Notes under the pieces: generated by a model | Told to the model about the DNA's origin: nothing | The model's input: only the letters and a program-made list of their open reading frames with translations | Databases searched by the model: none | Shown here: positions 3,289-25,253 of the stretch, one piece after another | Position numbering within the stretch: the first letter of the stretch is position 1 | Layout: every line of letters begins with the position of its first letter | Assembly: GCF_000003605.2 (NCBI RefSeq) | Contig: NW_003123424.1 | Span: 88,245-115,234 of the forward strand | DNA length: 26,990 nt | Origin: Saccoglossus kowalevskii | Lineage: Eukaryota > Hemichordata > Enteropneusta > Harrimaniidae | Reading direction: 5' to 3' | Made by a program: the position numbers and the translations under genes

Positions 3289-3486
3289 TTATATGGCAAC
3301 TGGTTGGTTTTTCTCGGTCAGCAGCGCCACTCTGCTCGGTCGACTAGTAAGAAAAAGTGGTTCTGAGTCAACTGTATGAAGAGCACGCTTTGCTTTCAAT
3401 TCTTTTTCCACTTTTTTACTGTACCAGTATAGGTAGATTGGTAAACCAAAGCTGATAAATGACACTCCCAACATCACAATGTTCAC
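3289..3486 (-). CDS. SLC43A1/2-like: SLC43-like exon 11 (last coding exon)
   Basis: The acceptor is TGTTACACTTTCAG. The exon opens at phase 0 and runs 65 codons to a TAA at 3289-3291. It codes residues 555-619: TM12 and a basic cytosolic C-terminal tail of about 44 residues. Confidence 0.92.
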   Translation of the reverse strand: MNIVMLGVSFISFGLPIYLYWYSKKVEKELKAKRALHTVDSEPLFLTSRPSRVALLTEKNQPVAI

Positions 3487-6400
3487 CTGAAAGTGTAACA
3501 GATAAATTGATTGAAAGAAAATAATAAAAAGCAACCTGGCAAAATAAGCCCACTGCTTCAGCAGAGCACAGTTTTGCAATACTAAGTGCATGCATAGTTA
3601 CTGTACTGTAAATGGTGTGTGCTAATGATGTCAAGTTTTTAATGGTTTCAACAGAAATTTTCATTTTATATTCTTCACTAATTCTCAGGAACCTTTCAAT
3701 CCAACTTAAGTATTGCTTGATGTTTTTACGCAAATACACAAATAACCACGGCTTTATTTACAATTCTATCAACTGTCTTAACATGATAAACTAGTGGATA
3801 CATCAACCCTGGTTACAGTATATGAATTTAAATTCCTCTAACAAAAATATTTGTTAACAAGCAGCCTCTCGACTGAGATAGCTCTGCTGTTAGCAATGCA
3901 CATTTCAATTAAAGAACTGAAGATATCATCACAAAATGAACAAATCTGAGAGGGGTCCACTTGCAGTACCTGTATGTATAATATCAAATCAATCAGACTT
4001 GCAGTGTTTAACAAGAAGTCGAAAATATCACTTTTTACCAAAAATGAAAAAATTATTTACCAAAATTAGAGATTGAAAGATATCATCTAGAAATGAACAA
4101 ATCTTAGAGAGGTTTGCCAAGGTACATATAGTATCAAAGTATTAAGAATTGTAGTTTTCAAGAAGAAGTTGAATAAGTAACGTTGACACGGATGATGGAC
4201 GACGACGGACAATCACTCATATGATAAGCTCCGCTTGACAAAGTTGACAGTGGAGCTAAAAATTTGGTAAGAATGCTGAAACTGTGTAGTATACTGCCCT
4301 CAAGTGGTAGTCCTATGACATATACATATAATAGTATTATAGAAAAATAACTTACATAAAATGGATCTTGGTTGAGTGGCCCTTCTATTGCTACGAAAAC
4401 TGGGTATTGTAAAAGTGCAAACATAGCAGAAATCAATGACTGCAAACCAATCAGACCTCCTTGTTGATTAGCTGGGTACCTGGAACAAACCAAAAATATG
4501 AGAAAATCAAACTCCGCTCAAAGACAATTAATTTCTCTATTTAATTTTAATTTTTTCAAAATTGATATCAATAACTACAAGAAATGTTTCTTACAATGTG
4601 TTGTGTAATATGTACTTACTGCAGGGCATATAATGAACAGACGGCTGAATGGATGAAACCTCTAATAATTGTATGCAGCACAAATGTAAAAATCTGAAAG
4701 AAAACATAGAAATTTTAATAATTTCTCTTCGATGCATGGGCTATACCAAGCCAAAGCCTTTTTTCTGTGTCTCATTGGTTATACCATTATGTTCACAGGG
4801 GAGATTCTACATTCACTGAATGGCAAATAACAGCCAAAACTTTTTTACTGCATCTCATGGGCTATACCATTATATAGACTGGGGTGGGTAGGTGCATGCT
4901 TACCTGAAGTTCTAATATTGGAATAAGCACCAGGATTCCAAAGAAGACACAGGCAGTATTAGTAATGGTAAATGCAACAACACCATTGCGTAGTTTTTGT
5001 ATCTTCACATCGGTGCGTTTCTTCTTTCCAATGCTATCAGTGGAGCTGCCAGAACTTTTAGACTTCAGTGATTTTGAAGACCGTGCAGTTTTATCAGAAT
5101 CTTCAGATCGTTCTGACAATGAGATGTTTTCCGAGTTGGCATCTTCTTCGGCTGGTTTAGCTTCTTCAACGTCTTCAGTTTGTGGTTTTGCCTTTGTTTT
5201 CCAGTCCATAATGAGCCCAATTAGTGGGCAAGTACAGAGACACAACAGTTGAAGAAAACCAAAGATGGCCGCATATAGTTCAACTGTGAATTGAAAATAA
5301 CATCAATCACTTTACTTGACAAAGACATTTTTTCTGAACACAATCTTCGACCAACCAATAATTTCCCACCATTCACTTAATTTATTTCTTTTAAGGCAAC
5401 AAATAGCTTATGCTTCTCATCACACACTTTTGTTTGATGGTTTAATAATATACTAAAATTTTGGTCACTAAGCCAAATTTGCTTACTTAAGTGCAGAGGG
5501 TTTGCCCAACTGATTATGTAAATATTTGGGAATTGTGTTGATGTGAATGTTCGGCAGACCTACCACTATTTGGATCATCATCAGTCATTCCCTCCACCAT
5601 TTGACTGAAAGAGCCGATAAAAAAGAGAAGACGTAGCTGAGTGATACACATAACAACTAAGCTCCATAGGAATATAGGACTAAAGATGGACTGGCAGAAG
5701 GTTGGGTCAGAGCCTCGCTTCATTTTTAGTTCAAGGTTCATTCTGTAAATAAAAAAAAACATAACATGATGTTATCTTCTTGTCAGATTCTCACTCTAGA
5801 CAATTACAAATCCAAGGGGTCTGGTATTTTGAAGAAAAAAAGAATCTGCATCAAATTTGAGAAAACAAAATCTTCAGAGAAACTTGCAAACTAAAATTTA
5901 GTTCAACATCACCCTGAAAAATAAGTCTAGCTCAAAATGAAGGGAACAAGAATTTGCATAATGTTTCTGCCATCTCCAATAATTTTTCTAATGGTCAAAG
6001 ACAAATGAATATCTTGATTTTTGATGTTGATTTCTGAACAAAGTTTTTTTCCTGTTTTTTATTACTATCCAAGCAAGTACAAGTGGCATGATGATAACTT
6101 ACTTTGATCCATACATGTCTCCTTGCTTAAGTACCTCGCCTGTACTTAACCTACGACCAACGTTAGAGACTCGTCGGTAGAAATGCTGACCAGAGACTTT
6201 ATTGTCCAGCTTTAAGATGTTCCAATGAATTCTGAAAGAGAATGATTCATTGATTATAAGAGATTTGATCGTCAACACTATAACCTAACACTCAATTATA
6301 CAGATTATCCAAGAAAATTATTTTTTGAATAATGTATTTTGATATGGATTGAAATTTAACTTATGGCTGCATAGTAGATTCTTGTATACCCAAGAATCAA

Positions 6401-9400
6401 TTGCCTTGGTCTCCTCAAATGCTCACTTTATTAATACACTTCAAATCATATCATAATCATACAATCATATTTTTACAATGACTGTTTCAATTAACCAATC
6501 AAATCATGCCAATGAAAATGTGTTGATTGTAGAAATCTGGGAGACATCAGAAAGCTTGTGGGCTAGGACTCTTACCCAAAACTTTCATCATCAGGATCAG
6601 GAATAGCTTCACTGGGTACATTTAAGAAACAGTTCAACCAAACAATACAGCATCCTATTGCAAGCCCAACGAACATATTCTGCCTGGAGACACCCAGATC
6701 ATAAAGAGCCTGAAAAATGAGAAAAAATAAATTAAACTTCTTGTCATGAAAAATTAAATAATAAAAATAAAAATTATAAACTTTGTTTATTTGGTTTTAT
6801 GCTGACTAAATAATAACCATACTCGACAACATAAACAAATTGTCACCAGTGAGGGCAGTCTTCACTGACATTTTGTGAAGAAATACAATGTGTTAACAAA
6901 GCATTTGTTATAGGGAACTGGCTACATTTCTCCCTGTAATACTTTCAATATACATACCTTCAAGATAGGGAAGAGAATGGCAGATGATGCATATGAGCCA
7001 ATACATAGACTGATGACAGTTGATCTCTTGTGTCCAAATAAATTGGAAACCTAAGAATACGGAATCAAGTAGTGTGTTAGCGCATGACAAGTGGTAACAG
7101 TACAACATAGCTAAAATCATAACTACTTCTGAAGATATTGTTATCATGTGAAATGTTTTGAAACCGTTTATCCTTCAAGACTTTGTTACTTGGGTAAATG
7201 TGTTCAAACTGACAGAGACGCTGTAAATCTAATTTGGAATGTTTGCCAGGGATATATTGTTAACACAGCTTCATAGACAATGGAAGATTATTTCCATTTC
7301 ATACAAAGTTAAACGATATATACAAAATGTTACACCAACAATTTGGCTGAAAAAATTGAGGTGTTCTATCTTACAGTGCATATATTGAGTAAACATTAGT
7401 TTCAGCATTCACATTTTCACTGAGCCAATCACAAGACAGAAGACATGCCACCATTTTGGTGATTAGAAACCGTCAATTGTGTCATCTTATCAAATTTAGC
7501 AAAAAACATTTGTCAATTAATTTTTCAGTATTTTTACTATTATTCCTAATTTTAATGTTGGTCTTGACAGGTTTTCTTCAAAATAATGTGTATAATAATG
7601 AAAAAAATACCATTTGCTTGAGAAAGTTATATTTATCACAATAATCTGCTCTGTATTGTATTGTTTTGCAGATATTGATAAAGTCACAAGAAGAAATACC
7701 AAGGTTACATAGCAACCAAACAAGCATGACATGATGGAGAAGTATGAAGAAGCACTTTAAAGGAATATAGTCTTTTCTTGGTTGAGTTAGACAGCAATCA
7801 ATTTGTGCTGAATATGCAATGTAGTCATCATTATCACATTGAACTGTTGGTATTTACTAGCTTGTCTATAAATGCACTCAACTAGGTGAACATTGGTGAG
7901 CCTCAAACACACAGATAATGTAGAGTGTCCCTTTAATATGCATTTATTTTCCATCTCATTGTTTTAATAAGAAAATTTAAAAAGATGATCAGCATTATTA
8001 TACCTGTAACGATGTAAATACTAAAGTTATGCCACCAATGCCATTCAATGCCACAGCTGGAAATAGCAGCACCGATGTAGTGTCAGGATTTGCAAATGCT
8101 AATATCAAAGCTGATGCACAAAAAAAGAAACTGAAAATACAAAAAATATGAATATGCTTAATGTAACCAGTTGTAACCATGGGGATGTGAAATGAAAATG
8201 AGAAGGTTAATGAAGAGGAGAATTCAGGAATGGAACATGCGTTGTGCATTACAAACCACATATGGTTGTCAAGGTTACAGACACAAGATAAATGCAAATT
8301 TTGCAAGACGTTGTCAGGCAAGTTTATGGGAGTGCACTATATGCATGTGCATTATGTGAGTGCATTATGTGAGTGCATTAATGTGAGTGCATTATAAGTG
8401 CATGGGTGCATGCTGGAGACCCATACCTGGAAAGAGGTGAAAATTGTGCAAATGCCGCCAATACCGAGTAGTGAGACGGCTGGGAAAAGGAGCCAAGAGG
8501 TGGATGAACTGGAGAAAGCTAGGATAAGACATCCTGAGCCATACAACAGACTGCAAGTGGAAAAGACGATATAGACAGGTAAGAGTGCAAACAATTAACA
8601 TGCAGGACTGAATAAAAAAAAATCATGCCATTTAGTTCAATATCACGTTATTGCTATGATGACTTCTTTTGTTGATATTCTGCCTATATGCATCTGTACA
8701 CTGATACTGTAATATTGTTCTCATTTAGAAAAAAATTAAAGTTACCAACAATTTTGAAAACTGCACCTACCAGCCAATCATACGGAGAATTCTAGAACCA
8801 AACTTGTCCATGGCCATTCCTATAGGAAATGTCATTCCACTAAGAAGGAAGGAACCAACTGTGAAGGCCAGATTGAGTTGCGTTTCCTGCGCTGAACATG
8901 TTCCCATCTCATTCAAATTACTATTAAGGACTGTTTCATTGGATGTGGGATAAAGTCTGTAGGTCACATTGTCAAAGTCTGTTTCGTTGGGGTTGTATGT
9001 GAATTCCGACCAAGTACCATTCTGTGTGTTCAGTTCTGTTTGAGAAAACAAACAAATAAAAAAATGCAATATGACTTAAAGTACCAGTATTTGTCGTGCA
9101 TTTGGTTGTCTGCTGTATTATCATTAAGATAGGGGTCTTCAAAGTTTACAATGGTACAGATTGCTAGGTGGTCTCATTAGAGTTCACAGTATGATGTATT
9201 AGTTTAAACTGAATATTTAGTAATGACAAAGATACTCATCCAAGAATGTCACAAAGCCCCCCAAAAAATGATATTTGCTATAAATGTATATACATATAGA
9301 TAACTTTTTGAGCTGATTAAATCACTCCAATCATGAGAAAAAAAATCTTTATATATGTCAAGGTTTTTCTGTTTTAAAGAAATCAGATATCTACCAAGTT

Positions 9401-12400
9401 CACTGACACAAATATTCTTTTGCCTTTAATCTTGTTTTTGTTTAAAGTGAAATAAGATCCTGATATTTAAAATGATTGTGTACATCAGATGCAATCTCCC
9501 AGGCAGAGTTCTATTCCACGAATATATCTCTGCCACCACGCGATCTTATGCTTGTCGTTGATTTATCGATGCGTCACAGTGGCACTACTTTCAAAGACGC
9601 CCAACAAAACATTGCCACGCAAGTGTTCGATTTTCGAACCAAACGAAAGCGTACGCGTTGTTTGTAGATTCTGGCTGTTTTTAAAGTGAGAGTCTCATTT
9701 TTTTACTTTCCGTAACACAAACGGTGTGACAGTAGGACGATTTACTCGTTAATACCCCTACGTGCAATCGTTTCTTTATATTTCTTCGTCTGGCAATCGA
9801 CAAGGCGGTCACTTTGATGAACCGAGTAACACCTTAGTAACCGTTATTCCGCGATGAAATTATTTTCTTTTGTAAATTATATAACTAATTCACCGTTTTC
9901 AGTATGTTTACGAAAAAATCATTATCAGCAATCGATAACATATTTTAAAACTTGTTTACTAGGATGAAGAAATCAACACGAGAGCCCTCTAATAACAAAA
10001 ATACGCAAATGATACGCGTAGTAAAAGTCTTGTGGTGTTTCACCACAAAATGGCGGTGTGTGGTGGCAGAGATACTTTCGGTGATCTAACCGCAAGGAAC
10101 TCTGGGAAGGAGAATGCATCAGATGATGATGTATGTAAATCGATATGTATCTTAGTTCCAGTGAACACCTGTTGATAATAAACCACATTCATTGTACCGC
10201 CGTCCCATCCATGCTGATAACACTGCCTCACATTCCAAAGTTGTATGGACATACTACTCAAAGTAATCAATTGTATTATACAAGTTTGATAACATTGGCA
10301 AGACATATTATCTTAGGATTATAGTAATCTTATAAGGTATAGCTATATTTTATTAACGTTTCTCTGTAAATTTGTTGTTTCAAGTACAAAGTATGGGAAG
10401 TATAGTTTTTGGTTGCCATCAGCGTAAAACACATCCTCCATTGAACTTTTCCTCATTCATGTTATGTTTACATAAATCCTTTAATTATATGAATAAGGAA
10501 ACAAGTTGTTTTTAGTTTACCTTGTTACTTCATGCAAGAGTTTTTTTGACTTATTTTCAATTATTACAACTGTAACTTGTAAACCTACTAACACTGCAAT
10601 CTACTAAACACAGCTGTCAATGTCATTTGCTTATCTTGCTTATATATGAAGAATGTGGCGTGATCTCATGCATATGCAAATACAGTACCTGGTAGCGGCC
10701 GACATAATTCATACACTATTTTGCGTTTCTACTCATATTGCAGGTTTTATTAGCTACATTTTGTCTTCAACTTTTCAACCCATGATCAGCCTATATAATA
10801 AAGGCTCGGCGGTGACTCTTTTGATAAAGTAACAAGTGATAAGATAAGTTTATGATGGCTATTTTACAATGGACAGTGTGAACACAGGTCACAGTTCAGA
10901 AAACATACCAATGATATTTTACTATTTTTTTACTAATTTAATTCCCTGCAACTTTTGCAATTGTTTGATGTGCAATATTATTTTTTCAATGACCTTACTT
11001 TGTGTGCGTCTACCAACCACGAGTCATCAGATGTACTATTGCAACTCACTAGTTTTATCACCTTTATTTTAGCCTTGAGTGAAGTATGTACTACACTCAC
11101 ACAATGTCAAACAAAGGTCACACATATTACACCTTACAAAACATTTAATATTTTGTAACAACATTTCTGTGGATGACATTGGTATAACTGACATTTACAA
11201 GTAAAATCATTTTACCAAATCATATTTATTTATATATGTATTTTCTGTTTGAAATAATATGTGCTATTAAAACGTTGAAAAAATTGAAAAATTGCCTAAT
11301 AAGCAAAAATTGAAAGGGAACATCTGCTGCAGTACAAATCCTCTTAACAAATACCACTATGCTTATGTATTTTTCTATAATTTCTTTGTTAATATAAACC
11401 AAATAATTTTCCATTGCCTACAAGTTTCAATCATAATATTAAAAATTAAATTTGGAAAAATAACTTCATTTTGTAAAAAGTGACCAAGTTAACTTTGATT
11501 TTAACAAGGAACAGATAAATCTAAAAAAAAATGTTTGGGTTTATTTCACTGAATTTTGACATTTCAAGCAATATTTGTTCCAAAGAAACAAGATGACAAG
11601 ACTCAGACACCCACTAATAGCCCTGTAGACAAATTAGAATCCTGATTTTAATATGGTACCTATTAAAACATTACTGTGATCAGCAGACTGGTAACAAGCT
11701 GGACAAATAAGCTGTTGTCAATTCTTATGTGGTTTTATTAAATTTGTGAAATGTGCATTGAAATTCAGGGAGAAGTAAAATTGATATATTTTTAAAATTA
11801 TGAATTATTTATTTTAATGTAAGATTGTCTTCTAATCGGTGTGCAGGTAAAGTGTCAAAAGTTGAATCAATGGTAGTACATGACATATGTTATCAATGTA
11901 TGTTGCACGTAGCTTGGATGAAGGATGAGCAATGTCTACAAAACCACAGTGTAATCTCATAAGGTTGAGTGATGTCATACAGATTGATGAGGTCAATTAA
12001 CTGTGTCACCTGTGGTCACATAGTGGAAGACTCTGGAGTACACTATCTTCTTAAATAGTGCCAATGAAGAACGGTTGGGGCTTACAGTGGCAGTCTGGCA
12101 ATGGTTCCACCAAATATATATTTGTGTAGAAATATAATTTACACAATTACTCCCAAAAATTACATAATTACAATTATTTATTTTGTAATAATCACTGTCT
12201 CAGAAATATAATTTACACAATTACTCCCACAAATTACATAATTACAATTATTTATTTTGTAATAATCACTGTCTCAGAAATATAATTTACACAATTACTC
12301 CCACAAATTACATAATTACAATTATTTATTTTGTAATAATCACTGTCTCAAAGATGCCAATAATGTGCATGTAAACTACAATAGTATTTCTTCATCTCAG

Positions 12401-13466
12401 ATTATAATAATACATTTTTTAGACGCTGCATAAAATCTTTTGACAATTTACTTCAAAATAGTGATCCAGAACCTCGTAACCATTGTGACACTGATGTCAG
12501 TTTTCTCCTATTGTACTGTCAGTTTAAAGTGACAGCTCAGTCTTATCTGTTTTTTTTTTGTTTTTTTGCATGAATCATTTAATTTGTACAAATAATAGCA
12601 TTCTGATAAATGTGTGCATTTCAACACATCCTCAGTTATCTCAGTCTTCATCACTTTATCACTGTCAGAACAAATAATAAAGTTCTTTTGGTAGAGTTTT
12701 AAGTAAATACATTGATGTAGACAGTGCCTGGAGATAGCACCCGTACACACGGCATATCGGAAAATTCACACGACACCAATGAGACATCAATTGTAAAAAT
12801 ACAGATATAGGTAACTTTTCTAATCTAAATGGATCTGTTTAACATTAACACAGATGAAGTGCTCAGACATGATGTTACAGATTGTATATTCTTTTTATTA
12901 TGCATACACACCCTAATAATTGACCACAATGTCAAGTTTGCAATGTCAGCACTATTTAGTATCAGAAAAAGAGTCAAAGTCATTTTGCAAGGTCAAATGT
13001 CAGACATATGCTTCCCATAATGCAACACTACAGTCACAAGGCATGTACCATGACAATTATTGTCTCTCTTCATTAAATGAGAGCTTGGCAGGTAAGACAT
13101 TGACTAATGTGAAGGCAGTTTGTCGCCTATGACCTACAAAATGTACACTGAATGAATGAAACTTGCATTGTATTCAGATCATGGGGCAAGCATACATTAG
13201 CTTGCATGGAATACAGAGTACAGGGCCAACAAGACGTCCTGTACAAGATGAGTCAATTTGGCAAAGTATTCATTATTACAGGGCCGACATAATATATAAG
13301 TCTTACCTTCATCACACAAATAGGCATAGAATCTTTCAGCTCTCAATATCAGAAGCAGGGAACTCCACCCAAGAAGAACAGCGGAGAAAAAAAGATTCTC
13401 TATAATAACATTAGTTATTAGCAACCAATATCTTCTCTGCTGTGCTATAAACAATGTTGGTGCCAT
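3289..13466 (-). CDS. SLC43A1/2-like: SLC43-family amino-acid transporter (LAT3/LAT4-like), 11 coding exons plus one alternative
   Basis: A 12-TM major facilitator related to SLC43A1/SLC43A2, plasma-membrane sodium-independent uniporters of neutral amino acids such as Leu, Ile, Val, Phe and Met (family knowledge). Hand-joined exons give 619 residues, against about 560-570 for vertebrate LAT3/LAT4. Seen in the translation: the N-terminal MAPTL and 'SAVLLGW' of TM1 (about 15-41); an extracellular loop with four N-glycosylation sequons (N59, N70, N76, N86); TM2, then the MFS A-motif G-x3-D-x2-G-x-R-x2-R at 126-138; TM3-TM4 from the alternative exon; TM5-TM6 (about 195-244); a loop, then TM7 (about 322-347) and TM8 (363-388); a 72-residue Ser/Lys/Glu-rich linker (391-462); TM9-TM12 (463-575) with '[15 protein letters not shown]'-like family sequence in TM11; and a 44-residue cytosolic tail. 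Exon phases agree throughout. The SLC43 assignment is firm, the exact paralogue and substrate are inferred. Confidence 0.93.
3900..4262. mobile_element. pearl/Helentron-like non-autonomous element in intron 10
   Basis: Two diverged core units of about 157 bp start near 3921 and 4078; both carry AGATATCATC and an 'AAATGAACAAATCT' block. They are followed by a GAC/GACGG microsatellite-like run (about 4188-4211) and a small AAGC-TCC-GCTT hairpin at about 4227-4237. Tandem core repeats, then an ACGG-type microsatellite, then a terminal hairpin is the layout described for pearl elements of molluscs and for Helentron-associated elements. Boundaries are approximate and the class is inferred from architecture. 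Confidence 0.5.
4356..4479 (-). CDS. SLC43A1/2-like: SLC43-like exon 10
   Basis: The acceptor is TTTGTTCCAG and the donor TAT|GTAAGT. It is 124 nt, phase 2 to 0. It codes residues 513-554: a short loop, TM11 with '[14 protein letters not shown]', and an extracellular 'GPLNQDPFY' before TM12. Confidence 0.93.
4620..4693 (-). CDS. SLC43A1/2-like: SLC43-like exon 9
   Basis: The acceptor is GTTTTCTTTCAG and the donor GTAAGT at 4614-4619. It is 74 nt, phase 0 to 2. It codes residues 489-512, TM10, with the family sequence 'TFVLHTI-x-RGF-x-HSA'. Confidence 0.92.
4904..5283 (-). CDS. SLC43A1/2-like: SLC43-like exon 8
   Basis: The acceptor is TTTTCAATTCACAG and the donor CAG|GTAAGC. At 380 nt it is the longest exon, phase 1 to 0. 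It codes residues 362-488: TM8 ('[13 protein letters not shown]-x-IMDW', a LAT3-like signature), a 72-residue Ser/Lys/Glu/Asp-rich cytosolic linker (391-462) that appears longer than in vertebrate LAT3, the conserved 'KIQKL-x-N' just before TM9, and TM9. Confidence 0.93.
5564..5742 (-). CDS. SLC43A1/2-like: SLC43-like exon 7
   Basis: The acceptor is a T-rich tract ending TTTACAG and the donor GTAGGT at 5558-5563. It is 179 nt, phase 2 to 1. It codes residues 302-361: TM7 with 'FLWSL' and '[10 protein letters not shown]', a well-kept SLC43 signature, then an acidic extracellular segment (TDDDPN). Confidence 0.93.
6103..6231 (-). CDS. SLC43A1/2-like: SLC43-like exon 6
   Basis: The acceptor is CTCTTTCAG and the donor AAA|GTAAGT. 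It is 129 nt, phase 2 to 2. It codes residues 259-301, a basic hydrophilic stretch of the central cytosolic loop. '[11 protein letters not shown]' and 'VGRRLS' resemble the corresponding loop of LAT3. Confidence 0.92.
6576..6709 (-). CDS. SLC43A1/2-like: SLC43-like exon 5
   Basis: The acceptor is CTCATTTTTCAG and the donor GG|GTAAG. It is 134 nt, phase 0 to 2. It codes residues 215-258, mainly TM6, followed by an acidic segment (PDPDDESF) that opens the long intracellular loop between the two MFS halves. Confidence 0.92.
6958..7050 (-). CDS. SLC43A1/2-like: SLC43-like exon 4
   Basis: The acceptor is CCGTATTCTTAG and the donor GTATGT at 6952-6957. It is 93 nt, phase 0 to 0. It codes residues 184-214 with the family's 'NLFG-x-x-RST' loop and 'GSYASSAI' in TM5, both typical of SLC43 proteins. 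Confidence 0.93.
8004..8130 (-). CDS. SLC43A1/2-like: SLC43-like exon 3b (alternative TM3-TM4 exon, distal)
   Basis: The acceptor is TTTTTTGTATTTTCAG and the donor CAG|GTATAA (GTATAA at 7998-8003). It is 127 nt, phase 2 in and phase 0 out. It completes the same Cys142 and adds 42 residues, one more than exon 3a, with a one-residue insertion in the TM3-TM4 loop. It keeps the LNG-x-GGI pattern known from vertebrate SLC43A1/A2. It has no stop or broken splice site, so it looks functional. Joining 3a to 3b would shift the frame and reach a TGA after 15 codons. Confidence 0.9.
8340..8413. repeat. short GTGAGTGCATTAT repeat in the intron between exons 3a and 3b
   Basis: About four degenerate 13-15 bp copies of a GTGAGTGCATTAT motif lie in the 296-bp intron that separates the two alternative exons, ending roughly 15 nt past the exon 3a donor. 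A GCATGC palindrome at 8408-8413 gives the transcript a GCAUG, the core site bound by RBFOX splicing factors. A splicing role is inference only. Confidence 0.5.
8427..8550 (-). CDS. SLC43A1/2-like: SLC43-like exon 3a (alternative TM3-TM4 exon, proximal)
   Basis: The acceptor is TTTTCCACTTGCAG and the donor CAG|GTATGG (GTATGG at 8421-8426). It is 124 nt, phase 2 in and phase 0 out. It completes Cys142 and adds 41 residues covering TM3 and TM4, with 'LILAF', 'LLFPAV' and 'GIGGI'. It is homologous to exon 3b (about 23 of 41 positions identical). It carries LLGIGGI where 3b and vertebrate LAT3 have LNG-x-GGI, so it is the more diverged copy at that site. Confidence 0.92.
8771..9035 (-). CDS. SLC43A1/2-like: SLC43-like exon 2
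   Basis: The acceptor is TTTTCTCAAACAG and the donor is GTAGGT at 8765-8770. It is 265 nt long, entering at phase 1 and leaving at phase 2. It codes residues 54-141: the glycosylation-rich TM1-TM2 loop with four N-x-T sequons, TM2, and the MFS A-motif with the Asp and Arg residues (D130, R135, R138) that gate major facilitators. Confidence 0.93.
9483..10125. mobile_element. non-autonomous Mutator-like element with 9-bp target duplication
   Basis: The 9-mer CATCAGATG flanks the element on both sides as a direct repeat (9483-9491 and 10117-10125). The 625 bp between them begins and ends with inverted repeats: the outer 20 bases match with a few differences (CAATCTCCC... against CATTCTCCT..., then CAGAGTTC). 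About 30-45 bases further in, a perfect block TATCTCTGCCACCAC (9525-9539, complement at 10060-10074) recurs. TIRs of about 60 bp with a 9-bp duplication are typical of Mutator-like elements. The interior is CpG-richer than the surrounding intron and codes for nothing recognisable, so it is a MITE-like derivative. Confidence 0.7.
12128..12349. repeat. 74-bp tandem repeat, 3 units
   Basis: Units begin AGAAATATAATTTACAC at 12128, 12202 and 12276, a period of exactly 74 bp. Copies two and three are identical as far as can be read. The first has one difference (CCCAAAAATT for CCCACAAATT), which points to recent expansion. The unit is very AT-rich and includes TAATTACAATTA-like palindromic sequence. 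Confidence 0.95.
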
Positions 13467-19704: not shown

Positions 19705-22290
19705 TCTAATACACGTAACATGTATTCAGTATTGGGCCTGTATTCCGCCTAATACTTGTAACATGTATTCAGTATTAGGCCTGTATTGCGTCTAATACAC
19801 GTAACATGTAATCAGTATTAGGCCTGTATTCCACCTAATACTCGTAACATGCATTCAGTATTAGGCCTGTATTCCGCCTAATACTCGTAACAAGCATTCA
19901 GTATTAGGCCTGTATTCCGCCTAATACTCGTAACATGTATTCAGTAATAGGCCCGTATTCCGTCCAATTCACATAACATGCAATCAGTATTAGGCCTGTA
20001 TTCCGCCTAATATACGTAACATGCATTCAGTATTAGGCCTGTATTCCGCCTAATACTCGTAACATGCATTCAGTATTAGGCCTGTATTCCGCCTAATACT
20101 CGTAACAAGCATTCAGTATTAGGCCTGTATTCCGCCTAATACTCGTAACATGTATTCAGTAATAGGCCCGTATTCCGTCCAATTCACATAACATGCAATC
20201 AGTATTAGGCCTGTATTCCGCCTAATACACGTAACATGCATTCAGTATTAGGCCTGTATTCTGCCTAATACTCGTAACATGCATTCAGTATTAGGCCTGT
20301 ATTCCGCCTAATACTCGTAACAAGCATTCAGTATTAGGCCTGTATTCCGCCTAATACTCGTAACATGTATTCAGTAATAGGCCCGTATTCCGTTCAATTC
20401 ACATAACATGCAATCAGTATTAGGCCTGTATTCCGCCTAATACACATAACATGTATTAAGTACTATGCATGTATTCCGTCTAATACACGTAACATGCATT
20501 CACTATTATGCCTGTATTCCGTCTAATACACGTAACATGCATTCAGTATTAGGCCTGTATTCCGCCCAATACACGTAACATGCATTCAGTATTAGGCCTG
20601 TATTCCACCTAATACTCGTAACATGCATTCAGTATTAGGCCTGTATTCCGCCTAATACACATAACATGTATTAAGTACTATGCCTGTATTCCGTCTAATA
20701 CACGTAACATGCATTCAGTATTAGGCCTGTATTCCGCCTAATACTCGTAACATGCATTCAGTATTAGGCCTGTATTCCGTCTAATACACGTAACATGCAT
20801 TCAGTATTAGGTCTGTATTCCGCCTAATACACGTAACATGCATTCAGTATTAGGCCTGTATTCCGTCCAATACACGTAACATGCATTCAGTATTAGGTCT
20901 GTATTCCGCCTAATACACGTAACATGCATTCAGTATTAGGCCTGTATTCCGTCTAATACACGTAACATGCATTCAGTATTAGGCCTGTATTCCGTCTAAT
21001 ACACGTAACATGTATTCAGTATTATGCCTGTATTCCGTCTAATACACGTAACATGCATTCAGTATTAGGCCTGTATTCCGCCTAATACACGTAACATGTA
21101 ATCAGTGTCAGGCCCGTATTCCGTCTAATACACATAACATGTATTCAGTATTAGGCCTGTATTCCGCCTAATACTCGTAACATGTATTCAGTAATAGGCC
21201 CGTATTCCGTCCAATACACATAACATGCAATCAGTATTAGGCATGCATTCCGCCTAATACACGTAACATGCATTCAGTATTAGACCTGTATTCTGTCTAA
21301 TACACGTAACATGTAATCAGTGTTAGGCCCGTATTCCGTCTAATACACGTAACATGTATTCAGTATTAGGTCTGTATTCCGCCTAATACACGTAACATGC
21401 ATTCAGTATTAGATCTGTATTCCGCCTAATACACGTAACATGCATTCAGTATTAGGCCTGTATTCCGTCTAATACACGTAACATGCATTCAGTATTAGGC
21501 CTGTATTCCGTCTAATACACGTAACATGCATTCAGTATTAGGTCTGTATTCCGCCTAATACACGTAACATTCATTCAGTATTAGGCCTGTATTCCGTCTA
21601 ATACACGTAACATGCATTCAGTATTAGGCCTGTATTCCGTCTAATACACGTAACATGCATTCAGTATTAGGCCTGTATTCCGTCTAATACACGTAACATG
21701 TATTCAGTATTATGCCTGTATTCCGTCTAATACACGTAACATGCATTTAGTATTAGGCCTGTATCCCGCCTAATACACGTAACATGTAATCAGTGTTAGG
21801 CCCGTGTTCCGTCTAATACACATAACATGTATTCAGTAATAGGCCCGTATTCCGTCCAATACACATAACATGCAATCAGTATTAGGCCTGTATTCCGCCT
21901 AATACACGTAACATGTAATCAGTGTTAGGCCCGTATTCCGTCTAATACACGTAACATGTATTCAGTATTAGACCTGTATTCCGTCCAATACACGTAACAT
22001 TTATTCAGTATTATCCCTGTATTCTGCCTAATACTCGTAACATGTATTCAGTAATAGGCCCGTATTCCGTCTAATACACGTAACATGCAATCAGTATTAG
22101 GCCTGTATTCCACCTAATACACGTAACATGTATTCAGTATTAGACCTGTATTCCGTCCAATACACGTAACATGTATTATCCCTGTATTCTGCCTAATACT
22201 CGTAACATGTATTCAGTAATAGGCCCGTATTCCGTCTAATACACGTAACATGCAATCAGTATTAGGCCTGTATTCAATCTGAGACATGTA
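19705..22290. repeat. 43-bp satellite array with 215-bp higher-order repeats
   Basis: There are about 60 head-to-tail copies of a 43-bp unit (CAGTATTAGGCCTGTATTCC, then GCCTAATACACGTAACATGC, then ATT). Variants are arranged with a period of five units. CAAGCATTC recurs at 19891, 20106 and 20321, and ATGTATTAAG recurs at 20451 and 20666, each exactly 215 bp apart. A variant ATGTAATCAGTG recurs at 21096 and 21311, again 215 bp. Each unit contains arms TATTAGGC and GCCTAATA around a nine-base loop. One shortened unit lies near 22165. It is non-coding. Confidence 0.95.
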
Positions 22291-22944: not shown

Positions 22945-23655
22945 ATTCATTTGTGATTTGTTCTCGAACCTCCCTGTCAAAATTTGTAACTGCAGAAGTT
23001 AGTTTTGGGGAGTGCCTTTAACAGTGTTTATTTATAATCGTGCATACCCGCCCATAAACATCTAAAATGTTTTCATTTACCAAAAGATTGTCGCCTCTTT
23101 TGATGGTAACAACTGTGTCAACGAGACCCAAAGATAAATTGATATGCAATCTTGACAATTGTCATATGACGGTCGACGTCTCACGGACAGCGCTCTGTTT
23201 AATCAGTTCGTTGACAATTAAAAACGGATTATGCTGTGGTGCCAATGTACATTAATTACCGATGACGGCTGTCATTAGACAATGGTACGTCGTTCACATC
23301 AATTATATCTCCTCTACAAATGACATAACCTCTTGACTTGTCAAACATGGCACTTCAAATGTCCTCGTCATCGTATTATGTAAGCCTGTGCCAACTAAGC
23401 TCTGTATGGGGTCTAAGCATTGATATTCCCTTGATTTATGAAAGACACTTCTTTCTCGAGTGTCTTTAAATTTACATAGCTTTCTAGCTTCTAGTGTGGA
23501 TCGAAAGTATTGAGCTTTTTTTTTACATACTTGCGTGAAATCTCCACAAATTATTTTCTGGCCTGTGTTCATTTTTTTTGTTTTCATTTTTCTGTTAGAT
23601 AACATTTAAATTATGTGCATTTGATAATAACAGAAATGACGTCATTGTTGTTGAA
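22945..23655. repeat. tandem segmental duplication, copy A
   Basis: It begins at ATTCATTTGTGATTTGTTCTCG and runs to the CRE-containing AATGACGTCATTG at about 23635-23647. The same order of sequence blocks recurs in 23720-25705, with near identity over 23165-23390 against 24838-25055. Short ORFs in it are not supported as genes. It lacks the insertions present in copy B and so records the pre-insertion state. Confidence 0.85.
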
Positions 23656-24765: not shown

Positions 24766-25097
24766 GTCATTGACCAAAAGATTGTCGCCTTATTTTGTGT
24801 CAACCCAAAGATTAAAAATAAAATTGATTTTCATATGACGGTCAACGTCTCACAGACAGCGCTCTGTTTAATCAGTTCGTTGACAATTAAAAACGGATTA
24901 TGCTGTGGTGCCAATGTACATTAATTACCGATGACGGCTGTCATTAGACAATGGTACGTCGTTCACATCAATTATATCTCCTCTACAAATGACATAACCT
25001 CTTGACTTGTCAAACATGGCACTTCAAATGTCTTCGTATTATGTAAGCCTGTGCCAACTAAGCTCTGTATGGAGTACATGGCTCTGCCACAGCTAAA

Positions 25098-25253
25098 CAC
25101 CTTTAAGGCGTAATAGTGTGTTCTCATCTGTTTTACGCTGTCGTAACAATCACGTAATGGTTTTACCCCTGATAAACCCGGCAACTTCTAAACCCTCTAT
25201 ATGTCGGCGTAATGTGATCACACCCGTTCTTCACTTATGTCTGCGTAAAGGGA
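25098..25253. mobile_element. possible small TIR element in duplication copy B
   Basis: Copy A lacks about 190 bp here. The ends CCTTTAAGGCGTAATAGTG and, in complement, CCTTTACGCAGACATAAGTG are partly matching inverted repeats. No clean target duplication was found, so an unrelated deletion in copy A is an alternative. Confidence 0.35.

Follow-up and report, generated by a model that had tools for sequence, protein, structure and literature searches.

Exon swaps that tune transport are already known in a few solute carriers. One of these carriers, ZIP14, is a ZIP metal transporter rather than a major facilitator, with a fold and substrate unrelated to those of the protein described here. Its human gene, SLC39A14, has two mutually exclusive exons, 4A and 4B, that change affinity, with the exon 4B form reported to have an eightfold higher affinity for Cd2+ (PMC10761908, in excerpt). 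In human SLC25A3, also a carrier gene, mutually exclusive exons that lie within a folded domain are chosen according to tissue (PMC5740500, in excerpt), but the product is a mitochondrial phosphate carrier and not a member of the major facilitator superfamily (MFS). One exon of two is likewise included in OGDH (exons 4a/4b) and in U2AF1 (exons Ab/3), the latter pair being termed duplicated (excerpt of PMC5224494). In OGDH, the choice is enforced by distant branch points, which lie 25-41 nt from the donor (excerpt of PMC7969005), whereas none is indicated at the present locus. According to the excerpt of PMC5740500, exon lengths make joint inclusion non-functional in 377 of 629 validated human clusters (60%), and steric interference is a potential factor in 57 (9%).

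Members of the SLC43 family did not feature among the cases found: searches of the open-access literature on SLC43 splicing yielded no earlier account of exon swapping among the papers listed, in agreement with the initial annotation of this DNA, which knew of none. Alternative TM3-TM4 exons in SLC43 genes were also absent from the open-access reports found, a comparison made at the level of publications. As far as that literature was searched, the exon pair described below is new for the family and ordinary in kind.

The pair lies in a window of 26,990 nt from the hemichordate Saccoglossus kowalevskii, the whole stretch of DNA analyzed here. The window contains a complete SLC43 gene on the minus strand, running from an ATG at 13466 to a stop codon ending at 3289, with 12 coding exons and GT-AG introns throughout. 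Exon 1 (13307..13466; 160 nt, exit phase 1) carries the ATG and TM1 and is supported by the exon model, tblastn and a match in the organism's own genome, and exon 2 (8771..9035; 265 nt, exit phase 2) encodes an extracellular loop and TM2. Two alternative TM3-TM4 exons follow, 3a (8427..8550; 124 nt, donor CAG/GTATGG) and 3b (8004..8130; 127 nt, donor CAG/GTATAA), both entered in phase 2 and left in phase 0 and separated by an intron of 296 nt (8131..8426). The exon model then gives exon 4 with TM5 (6958..7050; 93 nt), exon 5 (6576..6709; 134 nt), exon 6 (6103..6231; 129 nt), exon 7 (5564..5742; 179 nt), exon 8 (4904..5283; 380 nt), exon 9 (4620..4693; 74 nt), exon 10 (4356..4479; 124 nt) and exon 11, which includes the stop codon (3289..3486; 198 nt). 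The initial annotation had given the same limits for 3a (8550-8427), 3b (8130-8004), the upstream exon (9035-8771) and the start of the downstream exon (7050), as well as the phases and full splice signals for both alternative exons, and all of these are correct; an AG precedes and a GT follows each of the two. Within the first coding intron, at 12128-12350, are three tandem copies of a 74-bp unit that match at 99%.

Both forms of the protein carry the MFS fold signature, with PF07690 (MFS_1) matched above its cut-off at E values of 8e-23 (3a form) and 7.9e-22 (3b form). Against solved structures, the 3b form matched LAT4/SLC43A2 (9jbs; E 1.3e-144) and ENBT1/SLC43A3 (9l38; E 6.8e-61) and no other chain at E 0.1, and its alignment to LAT4, the nearest solved relative, has 51% identity. 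For the first 259 aa of the 3a form, LAT4 (2.9e-60) and ENBT1 (2.8e-32) were followed by the next MFS protein at 0.0013. By these matches the gene is closer to SLC43 proteins than to other MFS proteins and is predicted to encode a LAT4-like SLC43 transporter; the family and exon structure first proposed agree with the Pfam result, the LAT4 and ENBT1 matches and the 12-exon model. When the full-length 3b isoform was searched against its own genome (572 Mb in 4,830 contigs) at E 0.01, the 14 matches comprised the 12 exons of this gene, one on contig C1063 and one on contig C1850. Relatives were absent from the viral and prokaryote contigs scanned, as expected for an animal gene, and tRNA and Rfam scans of the whole window gave no matches.

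Exons 3a and 3b are adjacent internal exons that share their phases, have compatible GT-AG sites and contain no stop, as members of the mutually exclusive class do, and their lengths (124 vs 127 nt) differ by one codon, inside the limit of 20 aa for tandem duplicates. In the excerpt of PMC3228551, duplicated exons are defined by a length within 20 aa and a default relative homology score of at least 15%; with the gap costs of that study, 3a and 3b score 0.50 in both directions. The control in the same excerpt, on the D. melanogaster X chromosome, found such features in 90 of 16,180 exons (0.56%) that are not mutually exclusive. The encoded peptides are identical at 24 of 42 residues when the Cys codon that begins in exon 2 is included and at 23 of 41 without this split codon, the latter being exactly the identity claimed at the outset. 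Their alignment score of 108 lies so far above 5,000 shuffles (mean -9.8, s.d. 9.2, maximum 30) that chance resemblance is excluded. A WebScipio-like scan of overlapping pieces on both strands of the rest of the window returned 470 other AG..GT open stretches of like phase and length, the best with a relative score of 0.023 vs 0.50 for the real pair. Searched against the organism's own genome, a 56-aa query built round 3b had exons 3a and 3b as its sole matches up to E 10; within the window, tblastn found no third copy of exon 3 (next best E 0.079), and the repeat finder left 3a and 3b unlinked, showing no recent duplication at the DNA level. The two adjacent versions of exon 3 are confirmed as genuine, and both are conserved as coding exons.

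Mutually exclusive splicing of 3a and 3b is the best explanation of this arrangement and, judged from the sequence, a highly probable one. An ancient tandem duplication of exon 3 in a LAT3/LAT4-type SLC43 gene would have given rise to two mutually exclusive exons, every mRNA would carry either 3a or 3b, and the resulting proteins would differ in TM3-TM4 only. That the pair is an artefact of assembly or haplotype, with alleles or a misjoined paralog mistaken for a tandem, is conceivable in a genome assembled in 4,830 contigs but extremely improbable here: DNA identity between the exons is 72/126, far under the level of alleles, the 3b query has these two sites as its only matches in the genome, and the flanking gene is intact with all 12 exons on one contig. 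A single exon might instead be in use, with the other copy a relic or barely used and heading for decay. Death of duplicated exons can occur, and among the 11 donors that of 3b (GTATAA) ranks lowest, scoring -0.09 on a consensus matrix vs 5.41 (good) for 3a and 2.04 to 8.17 across the other ten; exon 3b could therefore be rarely used. We nevertheless rate the relic explanation as very unlikely, because 3a and 3b are both open, in phase and flanked by GT-AG sites, and because the copy with the weak donor is the one more similar to LAT4 (20/43 vs 15/42). The pattern of divergence also argues against it. Identity between the exons is 25/42, 33/42 and 14/42 at codon positions 1, 2 and 3, so that third positions are almost randomised (9.9 matches expected by composition), and the same codon is used for only 5 of the 24 identical residues; dN is 0.36 (NG86). 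When each exon was evolved neutrally until the observed DNA identity between 3a and 3b was reached, none of 6,000 runs (3,000 from each exon) kept 24 of 42 residues (best run 20; means 13.1 and 12.7), and the runs free of stops numbered 569/3,000 and 526/3,000 for the two starting exons. Since third positions are near random and yet 24 of 42 residues are kept, both exons have been under protein selection for a long time, which speaks against a relic.

Computed joining of the exons bears on how exclusivity could be maintained. The predicted frame is open with 3a alone (619 aa) or 3b alone (620 aa), reaches a stop at codon 199 when 3a and 3b are joined and stops at codon 172 when both are skipped. 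The exclusivity logic of the initial annotation is thereby upheld in a stronger form than it had been given, because inclusion and omission of both exons each stop early. A message with both exons has its stop 79 nt before the exon 3b-4 junction, and in one with neither the stop precedes the exon 5-6 junction by 136 nt; the position rule for nonsense-mediated decay is 50-55 nt. Decay is expected for both kinds of message because of these distances, and their removal would enforce exclusivity at the protein level. The same early stops would suit regulated unproductive splicing, in which 3a-3b joining or double skipping serves to turn the gene off, either in addition to isoform choice or in its place. 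One cassette exon would be enough for such a switch, and the switch alone leaves the conservation of two divergent peptides unexplained; we give it little chance. Two transporter types from one gene are probable because the frame is open only with exactly one version of exon 3.

Under mutually exclusive splicing, the choice between 3a and 3b would presumably be made through regulated use of splice sites. The donor of 3a is the stronger of the two, and 3b, with the lowest-scoring donor in the gene, would require help. Exon 3a may be the default with 3b dependent on an activator, or 3b may be used at a low level. We found no device that would impose exclusion at the level of splicing. Steric exclusion, which calls for a branch point less than 50 nt from the donor, is not apparent in the intron of 296 nt, where a distant branch point is not indicated; such exclusion is only one mechanism and is optional for membership of the class. 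By motif, the 3b acceptor is preceded by 24 AG-free nt with a branch-like A at -19. Pairing between the introns, assessed with a crude duplex method, did not exceed the shuffled level (45, 55 and 51 of 60 at least as stable), and RNA docking structures were dropped as a candidate for lack of signal above shuffles. We also counted short motifs of RBFOX (GCATG), Nova (YCAY), MBNL (YGCY) and PTB (TCTT). GCATG occurred 2 times vs 0.3 expected before 3a, 2 vs 0.8 between the exons and 1 vs 1.0 after 3b, TCTT occurred 11 times vs 6.9 expected after 3b, and YCAY and YGCY were not enriched in the introns around exons 3a and 3b. These excesses are too small to interpret without comparison species, and the argument from splicing-factor motifs was dropped. 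Counts of ATGCAC and CACTCAC were set aside because both are inflated by a 13-nt tandem array (TTATGTGAGTGCA) at 8324-8395, which lies inside the 3a-3b intron ~30 nt downstream of the 3a donor. This array could differ in length among individuals and influence exon choice.

Placed on solved LAT4, the swapped segment covers TM3, an extracellular loop and TM4, the position originally assigned to it, and the accompanying claim that TM4 lines the central cavity is borne out by the presence in this segment of the pocket residues M159, F163 and L166. In the excerpt of PMC13269557 on LAT4, these three form the hydrophobic pocket together with I184, phenylalanine is held by S100, Q335, Y187 and H465, the L166 alanine mutant is among those losing 30-90% of methionine transport, and L166 is included in the hydrophobic contacts of the cytosolic gate. 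With the LAT4 numbering checked at 33 positions, both isoforms retain S100, F163, I184, Y187, Q335, H465, Q488 and S489. They differ from LAT4 in having Ile at M159 and T485, Ala and Gln at the cytosolic-gate residues S478 and F481, and Tyr, Leu and Ile at the extracellular-gate residues Q500, I339 and M342; L166 is altered in 3a only, where it is Phe, and is Leu in 3b. ENBT1, a protein of the same family that was compared outside its C-terminal part, departs from LAT4 at S100, F163, I184 and Y187 (N, I, N and F), positions at which both isoforms keep the LAT4 residues. It shares with 3a a Leu at the position of LAT4 N154. Because the LAT4 pocket residues are mostly kept, the gene appears to belong to the LAT3/LAT4 amino-acid kind, altered at the gates. 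The behavior of LAT4 cannot simply be transferred to it because T485, S478, F481 and Q500, all outside the swapped exon, are changed.

The isoforms are set apart by 18 substitutions plus one inserted residue, spread over two helices and the loop. On an ideal helix wheel with the cavity face set by M159, F163 and L166, which is not a structure of this protein, three of the seven 3b/3a differences at LAT4 positions 145-167, namely 145 Val/Trp, 152 Ala/Ser and 166 Leu/Phe, are no more than 35 degrees off that face, and position 154 (Asn in 3b, Leu in 3a) is on the far side of the modeled helix. We infer that the isoforms may differ in transport through the pocket and gate site 166 and the residues on the same face. 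Most of the amino-acid site is retained, and we expect affinity, turnover or the preference for side chains to shift, not a new mode of transport to arise. It is also conceivable, though we think it unlikely, that the swap alters which substrates are carried, with 3b a LAT4-like methionine/phenylalanine facilitator and 3a of narrower or shifted range, one gene doing the work of two vertebrate SLC43 paralogs; the shifted range is proposed because of Phe at 166, Trp and Ser on the same face and the ENBT1-like Leu at N154. If mutually exclusive splicing is true, the gene would supply a natural matched transporter pair within a family whose pocket is solved, so that effects on affinity and gating would be directly testable, and would represent an alternative path to what vertebrates may have gained through gene duplication.

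The age of the duplication was approached through an SLC43 paralog on contig C1850 (~114.1-138 kb; L020, L022, L023), in which one exon covers both the exon 1 and the exon 2 part. Exon 3 of the paralog is single (L022:4173-4296) and 124 nt long, as 3a is, with the phases found here, and the next exon, exon 4, has 93 nt as in the present gene. A search between exons 2 and 4 of the paralog at E 0.2 gave no second exon 3, and the other matches there sit on the opposite strand in a tandem repeat (best E 0.003). With one exon 3 of equal length and phases in the paralog, the exon boundaries predate the split between the paralogs and the duplication falls in the lineage of the present gene. We call the paralog SLC43A3-like because its exon 1-2, 4 and 5 parts match ENBT1 (35, 58 and 50%) better than the protein of this gene (26, 32-33 and 38%), a tentative label because exon 3 of the paralog resembles 3a (16/42) more than it does ENBT1 (14/42).

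Exons 3a and 3b are closest to one another, at the alignment score of 108 given above. Identity to LAT4 is 20/43 for 3b and, for 3a, 15/42 in a multiple alignment or 16/45 pairwise; the score to exon 3 of the C1850 paralog is 65 for 3a vs 36 for 3b. A simple reading would place the duplication after divergence from the vertebrate lineage and have 3a change the faster of the two, a history that 42 residues cannot settle. Even in 3b, the swapped segment is less LAT4-like than its flanks (20/43 vs 27/42 and 24/41). Elsewhere in the genome, another SLC43-like fragment lies at C1063:23328-23726, where one open frame of 167 aa encodes TM1-TM2; its identity is 35% over the exon 1-2 region.

The window has several features apart from the SLC43 gene. 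Overlapping open frames on the plus strand at 21-465 had no significant Pfam match and give us the impression of the tail of a non-LTR retrotransposon protein. On the minus strand, two open frames at 23303-23605 and 24972-25187 have a common peptide (SLVGTGLHNT... TFEVPCLTSQEVMSFVEEI); they are repeated sequence, for which Pfam gave no match. Two arrays of 43-bp units that differ in sequence occupy 19706-22275 (~60 copies) and 1079-1510 (~10 copies).
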